A stretch of DNA of 59,795 nt, from the IMG/VR virus record IMGVR_UViG_3300045135_002103, positions 1-59,795 of that record. One strand, given 5' to 3'. Below, piece by piece: positions 3,098 through 5,503 of the stretch (positions are counted from its first letter, which is position 1; the number at the start of each line of letters is the position of its first letter). Below the pieces are notes generated by a model, which was given only the letters and a program-made list of their open reading frames with translations, was not told the origin of the DNA and searched no databases. The stretch is from a virus. The translations under genes were made by a program, and so were the position numbers.

Positions 3098-3418
3098 ATG
3101 CCAGCAAAAAACCCAAAAGAATACGCATCCAAGCACTACCAAGAAAATAAATCTAAGTATGCTGCTGCTGGTAAGGCAGCACGACAGCGTGTTAAGGAAT
3201 GGTATAATGGAATTATGGAAGACCACTCTTGTGAAAAGTGTGGTGAATCCGATACTGTGGTGCTAGAATGGCATCATATCGACCCCTCAAAAAAAGACAT
3301 GTCAATTGCTGATATGCTCTCTCGCAGGGGTCGCAAAACTATCTTGGAAGAGATAGATAAATGTATGTGTTTGTGTGCTAATTGCCATAGACGTTTACAC
3401 CACGAACTCCGGATTTAG
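3098..3418 (+). CDS. HNH endonuclease-like protein
   Basis: A 106-residue protein with a basic N-terminal helix (KAARQRVKEWYNG) and an HNH/treble-clef core: CEKC at 45-48, EWHHIDP at 57-63 and CANCHRRLH at 93-101. Such proteins cut or nick DNA and are common free-standing homing-type genes in T4-like phages. ATG 3098 is preferred over an in-frame start at 3080 that lies in the hairpin. The last ten bases of the gene are also the first bases of tRNA-Pro, which is unusual. Whether it is active is unknown. Confidence 0.8.
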   Translation: MPAKNPKEYASKHYQENKSKYAAAGKAARQRVKEWYNGIMEDHSCEKCGESDTVVLEWHHIDPSKKDMSIADMLSRRGRKTILEEIDKCMCLCANCHRRLHHELRI

Positions 3419-3482
3419 CGCAGTTTGGTAGCGCACTTCACTTGGGCTGAAGGGGTCGGGGGTTCAAATCCCTCAATCCGGA
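3409..3482 (+). tRNA. tRNA-Pro (anticodon TGG)
   Basis: Acceptor CCGGATT pairs with AATCCGG, discriminator A. Anticodon stem CTTCA/TGAAG closes loop CTTGGGC, and the T arm is CGGGGGTTCAAATCCCTC. Its 5' end overlaps the HNH stop codon. Confidence 0.95.
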
Positions 3483-3502
3483 CTTACTAAATATCCGTAA
3501 CG

Positions 3503-3670
3503 ATGAAGATTTATTCTGTGGAACACTGGCAAGAGAACTGGGAAGAACTGATGGAAAGAGTTGAGAAGGGAGAACATATTGGGGTGACAAACGGAGAAAA
3601 TACTGCTATAATGATGCCTGCGGATGATGAACTCATACGCATGTATACAGACCACGAAGAAGGTTCTTAA
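3503..3670 (+). CDS. Phd/YefM-type antitoxin-like protein (55 aa)
   Basis: The sequence matches the prevent-host-death antitoxin pattern: a short N-terminal strand, W..NWEELMERVEKGEHIGV, then the turn NGENTAIMMPADDE. Members bind DNA as dimers with this domain and use a C-terminal tail to block a toxin. Here only about ten residues follow the domain, and no toxin-like gene is adjacent. An ACTAAATA late-type element lies at 3486-3493. The stop codon abuts tRNA-Ile without a gap. It may act as a repressor or counter a host toxin. Confidence 0.65.
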   Translation: MKIYSVEHWQENWEELMERVEKGEHIGVTNGENTAIMMPADDELIRMYTDHEEGS

Positions 3671-3745
3671 GGGACTGTCGCCTAATGGTTAAGGCCCACT
3701 GCTTATAACGGTGTGATCTGGGTTCAATCCCCAGCAGTCCTACCA
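3671..3745 (+). tRNA. tRNA-Ile (anticodon TAT) with encoded CCA
   Basis: Acceptor GGGACTG pairs with CAGTCCT (terminal G-T), discriminator A3742 and CCA 3743-3745. Anticodon stem CACTG/CGGTG closes loop CTTATAA, so the anticodon reads TAT. The T arm is CTGGGTTCAATCCCCAG. Bacteria usually read AUA with a CAU tRNA modified to lysidine, so a UAU anticodon is uncommon. It directly abuts tRNA-Met. Confidence 0.85.
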
Positions 3746-3818
3746 GCAGGTTTAGCAATCTGGCGAATGCAGCAAACTCATAATTTGCCTAAGGTGAGTT
3801 CGATCCTCACAACCTGCA
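3746..3818 (+). tRNA. tRNA-Met (anticodon CAT)
   Basis: Acceptor GCAGGTT pairs with AACCTGC, discriminator A. Anticodon stem GCAAA/TTTGC closes loop CTCATAA, and the T arm is GTGAGTTCGATCCTCAC. A lysidine-modified tRNA-Ile cannot be excluded from the sequence. Confidence 0.9.
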
Positions 3819-3819
3819 C

Positions 3820-3848
3820 TTGACGGTTCTCCGTCAAACCCTTATAAT
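3820..3848 (+). promoter_or_regulatory. Consensus sigma70-like promoter with hairpin
   Basis: TTGACG (3820-3825), 17-base spacer, TATAAT (3843-3848), right after the tRNA run. The -35 region sits in a hairpin TTGACGG-ttct-CCGTCAA, which may also end the tRNA transcript. Confidence 0.7.
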
Positions 3849-3870: not shown

Positions 3871-4086
3871 ATGACACTTACAGAAAAATTCAAGAAAGAC
3901 ATTCAAACCCTTCGTGGTGCAGCAAATGGTGAACTGTTCCTTGATGTAAAGAACCCGAAACTTTTCAAAAAGGTTCGACGCTATTATGAAAATGCTGGTG
4001 TTGTATTCTCTGGTGATCCTCTTGATGATTATGAAATCTTGATGGAGTATCTGTATAATGATCTTGAAACTGTTGAGGTTAGTTGA
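3871..4086 (+). CDS. Hypothetical protein (71 aa)
   Basis: ATG 3871 is 22 bases after the promoter -10 element, giving a short leader. The product is soluble, with helix-forming LTEKFKKDIQTLR and a C-terminal acidic segment. The stop TGA shares its last base with the next ATG. No family is recognised. Confidence 0.65.
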   Translation: MTLTEKFKKDIQTLRGAANGELFLDVKNPKLFKKVRRYYENAGVVFSGDPLDDYEILMEYLYNDLETVEVS

Positions 4087-4325
4087 TGAAAGTTCTTCTT
4101 GAACGTTTCCCCTATCGTTATGTTGAGTCTGGCACACTAGAAAATGGTATGCCAGACTATCGCATTCAGAAAGCAAATAGTTGGACTAAACGATACAGTG
4201 ACATGTATTTGCTTGACAACAAAATGCAACTTATGACTGCGATTGATGACTTTGAGTACACTAAATGGTTAGATCCTGAAGGTGTACCTTGTTACATCAA
4301 AGACTCGGTATCGTCTCAAAACTAG
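4086..4325 (+). CDS. Hypothetical protein (79 aa)
   Basis: It starts at the TGATG junction with the preceding gene. It is soluble, with aromatic residues spread through the sequence (FPYRYVESG, WLDPEGVPCYI). It is probably co-transcribed from 3820. No recognisable domain. Confidence 0.6.
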   Translation: MKVLLERFPYRYVESGTLENGMPDYRIQKANSWTKRYSDMYLLDNKMQLMTAIDDFEYTKWLDPEGVPCYIKDSVSSQN

Positions 4326-4358: not shown

Positions 4359-4571
4359 ATGATTGAATTTGATGACATTGAACTCCTACAACTTAAGTTT
4401 TGTATGAGTGAAACTAAAAAAATGATGGCTCACCCCAGTGAGCATGAACGTCATGCATCTATTAGTAAAAAAGTAGATGATGAGATGGAACGACGTAAAC
4501 AAGCAACTGGAGCATATACACGCGAAGGTTTGTTGCGTCAACTTGAGGAAGACATCAAACGTCTTTCATAG
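4359..4571 (+). CDS. Hypothetical helical protein (70 aa)
   Basis: Acidic and helical throughout (IEFDDIELLQLKF at the start, REGLLRQLEEDIKRLS at the end), with no cysteine pair or membrane segment. It lies 33 bases after the previous gene. The function is unknown. Confidence 0.6.
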   Translation: MIEFDDIELLQLKFCMSETKKMMAHPSEHERHASISKKVDDEMERRKQATGAYTREGLLRQLEEDIKRLS

Positions 4572-4853: not shown

Positions 4854-4957
4854 AAAAAGTTTCTTGCTTCTTTCAAGAGCAAGTGGTGCGGATGGAGGAA
4901 ACTCCCGCCCTGTTTCTTACTTCAGGTTAAAGAGTAAGTACTTAGATTATACTTTCT

Positions 4958-5503
4958 ATGTTCCAAGTTCCTTTTTATCGAACAAATATTTCTAGATGGA
5001 GTGATCACAAAAAAGAAGTGATGTCTAAACTCTATAAAAATCTTGATGGATACATTGAGAAGCATGAGTGTATGACCACTTTTTTTAGTGAAACGAAAGA
5101 TTTAGATCTTCATCTTGAATTATTCAAACCGTTTTTAGATTTTATTAAATCAGATCTTGATGAGTTGAGGAAAATTGAGAGTATGTCTGGGGGATGTCCT
5201 ATGCCAGATATTACTGATATATGGTATCAATCATATACAAAACATCAGTATCATCAACTTCATAATCATGGATCTATTGGATGGTCCGCTATTTTCTATG
5301 CTACTTTTGATAAAAAAGAACATAAAGCAACTAGATTCTACTGTCCTTTTCCTGATGTATCAGGACGAACGATTAGTCATGAACCAGATGTGGATGAAGG
5401 TACATTGATTGTCTTTCCCTCATATTTGCAACATGAGGTAAGATATTCATTGAGTGATAAAAAACGTGTTATCATTTCTTTTAATATGTCCCCATGGAAG
5501 TAG
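4958..5503 (+). CDS. 2OG-Fe(II) oxygenase family protein
   Basis: A 181-residue protein with the double-stranded beta-helix iron site of 2-oxoglutarate oxygenases: HNH at 102-104, a distal His in FPSYLQHEVRYS (H159) and the basic residue R170 in KKRVIISFNM, which would bind 2-oxoglutarate. These are the usual motifs of the small phage oxygenase family abundant in T4-like cyanophages. The enzyme would hydroxylate a protein, sugar or nucleic acid at the cost of 2-oxoglutarate, a nitrogen-status metabolite in cyanobacteria. It is followed by a strong terminator. The substrate is unknown. Confidence 0.8.
   Translation: MFQVPFYRTNISRWSDHKKEVMSKLYKNLDGYIEKHECMTTFFSETKDLDLHLELFKPFLDFIKSDLDELRKIESMSGGCPMPDITDIWYQSYTKHQYHQLHNHGSIGWSAIFYATFDKKEHKATRFYCPFPDVSGRTISHEPDVDEGTLIVFPSYLQHEVRYSLSDKKRVIISFNMSPWK

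Follow-up and report, generated by a model that had tools for sequence, protein, structure and literature searches.

What does a protein with the fold of an antitoxin do between the tRNA genes of a phage, when no toxin gene accompanies it? The question is raised by a stretch of viral DNA of 59,795 nucleotides (the window, by which we mean the whole stretch analysed). Among named viruses its closest relatives are Synechococcus phages, for instance Bellamy and S-SM2, both belonging to the Kyanoviridae. An initial annotation had described a 55-aa ORF lying between tRNA genes, and the locus is indeed organised in this way: the ORF starts with ATG, tRNA-Pro(UGG) precedes it and tRNA-Ile(UAU) follows it. 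The tRNA genes in the following list were called by ARAGORN.

3409-3483: tRNA-Pro(UGG), ending 19 nt before the ATG of the Phd-like gene
3487..3493, + strand: CTAAATA, a possible late-promoter box or operator, 9 nt before the start and in the position taken by TATAHATA in relatives
3503..3670, + strand: gene for the Phd/YefM-fold protein (PHROG_375), 55 aa plus stop, ATG start, recognised as an ORF, by profile and by fold
3608..3610, + strand: AUA codon of Ile36, read from the sequence
3626..3667, + strand: conserved C-terminal tail (residues 42-55), a candidate partner-binding segment delimited by conservation
3635..3637, + strand: AUA codon of Ile45; AUA is used in 131/138 Ile codons at this alignment column
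3671..3745, + strand: tRNA-Ile with anticodon UAU, 0 nt after the stop codon of the Phd-like gene
3746..3819, + strand: tRNA-Met(CAU), 0 nt after tRNA-Ile(UAU)
3871..4086, + strand: PHROG_552 / T4-GC249, a frequent neighbour
4086..4325, + strand: PHROG_481 / T4-GC250, a highly conserved 79-aa protein and frequent neighbour

The ORF is a real gene under purifying selection, since 181 of 185 pattern-matched stretches of viral contigs encode a relative and the median dN/dS of the family is 0.30, with values of 1 or more in 0.02% of 4711 pairs of intermediate synonymous divergence.

The assignment of the protein to the Phd/YefM fold, made in the initial annotation together with the proposal of a profile search against Phd families, is supported by profiles and by predicted structure, although the profile search itself gave a divided answer. 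The PHROG_375 profile matches the window's protein (E 1.2e-8) and every one of the 12 divergent or longer forms, but PF02604 stays below its cut-off of 29.8 bits for this member alone, at 15.8 bits. Among the relatives, PF02604 is found at E<=1 in 41 of 43 (best 7.2e-8), all 12 divergent or longer forms match it too (best 1.7e-9), and DUF5766 (PF19070) matches 22 of the 43 (best 0.0022). An AlphaFold2 model built on 41 aligned relatives shows the order b-a-a-b-b-a with a mean pLDDT of 79.9 and a pTM of 0.56, the pLDDT being about 92 over residues 1-30 and below 50 at residues 45-49 and 52-55. Its top PDB matches, by both Foldseek and VIA, are the Phd, YefM and VapB46 antitoxins. The best Foldseek match is P1 Phd (3hs2, E 3.2e-3, query TM 0.69), with none at 0.001 or below; in VIA the antitoxins occupy the first rows, with a best Z of 7.8 (rmsd 4.4 over 55), a value under 8 that would be weak on its own, and VapB46 at Z 6.4 (rmsd 1.7 over 42). 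We accept the Phd fold in spite of these values because the fold and profile searches agree. The window protein shares the b-a-a-b-b-a fold with P1 Phd, YefM and the N-terminal domain of VapB46, but differs from these antitoxins in having no adjacent toxin, a shorter C-terminal segment and a very acidic core. The name of the protein is itself not new, as PHROG_375 already appears as 'Phd-like antitoxin' in RefSeq for many cyanophages.

The claim that no toxin-like gene follows agrees with our searches as well. No toxin family was found above cut-off among the ten ORFs neighbouring the Phd-like gene, and the PIN, ParE, YoeB and Fic profiles gave 0 matches within the 59.8 kb of the window, which is a fragment of a phage genome. 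One ORF at 4359-4571 was considered as a PIN toxin and set aside (PIN_12, 13.5 bits against a cut-off of 32). PHROG_481 was also considered, on account of its toxin-like size and of the 4-nt overlap with the Phd-like gene in some phages; its model (pLDDT 85.0) gave no good structural match, with a best Foldseek E of 0.88 and VIA Z scores of at most 4.3, PC4, Pur-alpha and AcrIF24 rows being among them and two HigB rows appearing at Z 3.1 and 2.5. We make no toxin claim for PHROG_481 because its model lacks a good match in the PDB. In the search for cellular relatives, our patterns matched 80 and 225 stretches of genome contigs, none of which was confirmed, and the sole plasmid match stood at E=4, under an alpha/beta hydrolase. 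Distant cellular relatives could escape the genome-contig and plasmid scans, since these require pattern matches.

The most informative part of the initial annotation was its remark that the gene touches tRNA-Ile, as this adjacency turns out to be a specific and recurrent link with UAU tRNAs. When the Phd-like gene is taken as the starting point, ARAGORN places a UAU tRNA within 40 nt downstream, mostly at 0 nt, in 62 of 82 rows (80 viral contigs plus S-SM2 and Bellamy). Among the 20 other rows, reading of the sequence shows that three stop inside a recognisable tRNA-Ile and that two carry a type-2 tRNA, a form described below, that ARAGORN missed. A scan independent of the protein was made with two UAU-tRNA sequences against viral contigs (at least 120 stretches each), 6 type-1 and 7 type-2 loci with less than 250 nt upstream being dropped. 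Among the matches listed, the 60 nt upstream of the tRNA contain the end of a Phd-like ORF in 61 of 114 type-1 loci and 88 of 113 type-2 loci; the ORF lies farther away than 60 nt in 5 type-1 loci, and there is none within 3 kb in 48 type-1 and 25 type-2 loci. Furthermore, among the loci listed, 125 of 210 Ile(UAU) tRNAs have a Phd-like gene ending no more than 60 nt upstream, versus 3 of 1152 other ARAGORN tRNAs, all three Met(CAU), where the 1152 come from loci picked for having a UAU tRNA. PHROG_375 adjoins tRNA-Ile in S-SM2 and S-TIM5 as it does in the window, and the family is also present in Bellamy and S-SKS1. The existing PHROG_375 annotation names the protein alone and holds nothing on a UAU-tRNA link or on the AUA bias reported below; no published account of either was found in the literature searched, and, as far as these searches show, the pairing of a Phd-like antitoxin with an AUA-reading tRNA is undescribed.

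The UAU tRNA that follows the Phd-like gene occurs in three unrelated bodies: type 1 is standard, with 72-75 nt; type 2 has 88-90 nt, a short D loop and a long variable arm; and type 3 has 95 nt. Rfam recognises one type-3 locus as a tRNA (56.6 bits); for two type-2 loci its only match is a weak one to tRNA-Sec (35.6 and 30.6 bits, cut-off 47). These bodies swap repeatedly on the tree of 195 Phd genes, where the UAU-linked genes require 26 or more exchanges of one body for another. The tree itself is weak, 42 of its 192 inner branches being starred; when only branches with good support are counted, type 1 requires 17 changes and type 2 requires 13, each type being set against all other rows.

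The unusual UAU tRNA whose D loop is short and whose variable arm is long (GTGAGACTTGGTAGTCAG) follows the Phd-like gene in loci L050, L066, L070 and L013 and occurs in phages S-SKS1 (L088) and S-SRM01 (L087); in the two phages the sequence is present, yet no tRNA is annotated. In loci L043, L049 and L057 the Phd-like gene is directly followed by a remnant 5' end of a type-1 UAU tRNA, which in L049 and L057 is fused to part of a type-2 tRNA, as if caught mid-replacement.

The Phd-like family is, moreover, rich in the rare codon AUA. The window's own gene counts against this, with only 2 AUA among its 4 Ile codons; the 55 ORFs of at least 120 aa in the window have 166 among 990. Over the whole Phd-like family AUA accounts for 543 of 898 Ile codons (60%), and the control ORFs of the loci use it at 25% (50-150 aa) or 19% (all 3546). 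The family ranks first in AUA share (0.605) among 26 gene families that each comprise 20 members and 100 Ile codons or more, for which the next value is 0.413 and the median 0.224. Counting once per 70%-identity cluster, the clusters being built greedily, gives 98/193 (bootstrap 43-59%). In comparisons of linked with unlinked genes, from which six 'short' rows were excluded, the share by cluster is 85/154 with a UAU link and 9/33 without one, and the remaining ORFs are nearly alike in linked and unlinked loci (18.9% vs 20.9%). Seven relatives with no UAU tRNA in the listed neighbourhood (S-RSM4, S-PM2, Syn1, S-SSM7, S-WAM2, S-RIM32 and ACG-2014j) use AUA in 2 of 22 Ile codons summed, and an eighth, DSL-LC03, in 2 of 4. 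On independent tree pairs about 4 favour an association of AUA with UAU linkage and 0 go the opposite way, with a median p of 0.125, which is not significant and leaves the tie between the bias and tRNA linkage suggestive.

Two further properties of the protein bear on its function. The tail motif is kept in 184 of 195 Phd-like sequences; the longer forms (67-68 aa) insert a linker and retain the same ending, and the tail is echoed in the very divergent talC-linked forms of S-RSM4, Syn1 and S-RIM32. The core has a net charge of -5 in the window protein and a median of -6 over the 195 sequences, and across the family Lys and Arg are depleted at the start of helix 1 and at most hairpin positions. 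In an Enterococcus Phd, by comparison, Lys8, Arg10 and Asn14 are required for DNA (PMC13034048). The acidic core disfavours a classical DNA-binding antitoxin, and the suggestion in the initial annotation that the protein could act as a local repressor is weakened.

Of 173 distinct Phd-like upstreams, 38 carry a TATAHATA that terminates exactly 8 nt from the start; it is found at this distance in 0 of 3248 control ORFs, where the peak lies at 20-28 nt. An SD-like sequence is rarer before the Phd-like genes (22/173) than before controls (728/3248). The position of the box, taken with the published late promoter motif of S-PM2, NATAAATA (PMC2984593), suggests that it may give a nearly leaderless late message. 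Several other elements were observed nearby. Right after the CAU tRNA, an inverted repeat (TTGACGG-TTCT-CCGTCAA, window 3820-3837) overlaps the -35 of a sigma70-like promoter; the repeat pattern is present in 43 of 58 distinct such promoters, with complementary inner dinucleotides of several kinds in 33 of the 43, and a symmetric operator or a tRNA 3' hairpin are candidate readings of it. An HNH endonuclease gene, possibly a homing-type element, lies at 3101-3418 of the window (PHROG_3106, 1.3e-24), its 3' end overlapping tRNA-Pro, and a wcaG cis-regulatory RNA at 4855-4952 (RF01761, 78.9 bits) is followed by an ORF at 4958.

The locus and its relatives thus present a Phd fold with no recognised toxin, adjacency to UAU tRNAs across three bodies, AUA-rich coding and a conserved tail. 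The explanation that we favour, tentatively and with somewhat less than an even chance of being right, is that the gene encodes a cyanophage-specific orphan Phd/YefM antitoxin against a host toxin that attacks translation or tRNA, held in one cassette with the tRNA that reads AUA. The protein would dimerise through its Phd core and its tail would hold a host partner, most likely such a toxin, while one phage transcript would supply both the antitoxin and a replacement tRNA. Synthesis of the antitoxin would then depend on the UAU tRNA being made, because its message is rich in AUA. A counter-toxin role is a plausible candidate function for the protein, and T4 Dmd would act alike if the Phd-like protein neutralises a host toxin, a likeness that provides a lead. 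Phage S-CREM1 carries YefM (ORF54), TacA and MazE, which like the window gene are phage-borne antitoxins without a toxin and have been proposed to neutralise host toxins, and UAU is the S-CREM1 tRNA type that is missing from its host CB0101 (PMC9964418). The toxin-antitoxin pairs of CB0101 include phd/doc, yefM/yoeB and vapB/vapC (PMC5498466). Phage tRNAs, for their part, have been proposed to offset host tRNA-cutting toxins (PMC10264068), with tRNA being supplied under attack on the host tRNAs (PMC10264068, PMC11555353); the anti-defence systems described in these two sources consist of tRNAs alone, whereas in the window the tRNA is joined to an antitoxin-like gene.

Several observations count against this orphan-antitoxin explanation: in the talC-linked relatives the Phd-like gene adjoins PHROG_481 and no UAU tRNA is annotated; the S-TIM5 group has kept the UAU tRNA and lacks the tail; the tail of the window family is about half the length of the toxin-binding C-terminal segment of the Enterococcus Phd, residues 52-79 (PMC13034048); no cellular relative was found in the two genome-contig scans or in plasmids; AUA follows UAU linkage only suggestively on independent tree pairs (median p 0.125, as above); and AUA is unevenly placed along the gene. 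A more specific and doubtful proposal is that the antitoxin is interlocked with the tRNA: being coded with AUA and transcribed ahead of the tRNA that reads this codon, it would be made only where AUA can be decoded. The support for this testable idea is mixed.

Other explanations start from the same observations. The AUA bias might have arisen as a side effect of a DNA or RNA signal that overlaps the gene, chiefly its last 14 codons, and that serves, for example, as a promoter or in the processing of the downstream tRNA. AUA does peak in the tail (266/311, 86%, against 244/543, 45%, in the core), an uneven placement from which part of the bias may well be a nucleotide signal, and CTC, CGA and TAC/CAC codons are enriched there too. 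We nevertheless consider a signal quite unlikely as the explanation of the bias, since the core alone stands above every other gene family, no conserved RNA structure besides the tRNA was found in the tail among 28 representatives, and synonymous positions vary across most of the tail. It is also unlikely, if slightly less so, that the protein is a regulator gated by AUA, which would repress or co-repress its own transcription unit; scarcity of UAU tRNA would slow the reading of the AUA-rich message, repression would fall and more tRNA would be made. Such a regulator would fit the AUA enrichment of the family, the co-linearity of gene and tRNA, mostly 0 nt apart, and the box fixed at 8 nt, and the nearest solved structures are the first 57 residues of P1 Phd and Phd bound to operator DNA. 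Against it stand the acidic core and the scarcity of Lys and Arg in the hairpin and at the beginning of helix 1, the places in which a Phd relative relies on basic residues for DNA (PMC13034048), and a simple repressor would not need a conserved tail.

The link with the tRNA might, finally, be a matter of inherited gene order. The Phd-like gene would then form a phage two-gene unit with PHROG_481 into which tRNAs were inserted later, the UAU link reflecting this order and recombination at tRNA genes. In 91 of the 185 Phd matches PHROG_481 follows within 1.5 kb, the two genes overlap directly by 4 nt in S-RSM4, S-PM2 and S-WAM2, and cyanophage tRNA genes have been described to co-occur with non-syntenic genome regions (PMC3037559). 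We regard this history as rather unlikely. Neither PHROG_552 nor PHROG_481 lies within 1.5 kb in 78 of the 185 matches, yet most of the type-2 loci listed (88/113, as above) have the Phd-like ORF upstream; no known toxin fold is recognised in the bbbbaa model of PHROG_481; and inheritance alone leaves the same anticodon on three tRNA bodies, as well as the AUA bias, unexplained.

If the orphan antitoxin is indeed interlocked with its tRNA, the cassette would couple counter-defence to tRNA supply at the level of translation, and this interlock would have been kept while the tRNA body was repeatedly replaced. An antitoxin fold tied to one tRNA by position and by codon use makes two questions testable in a single cassette, namely the reason for which phages carry certain tRNAs and the function of their orphan antitoxins; the cassette belongs to cyanophages that are abundant in the ocean.
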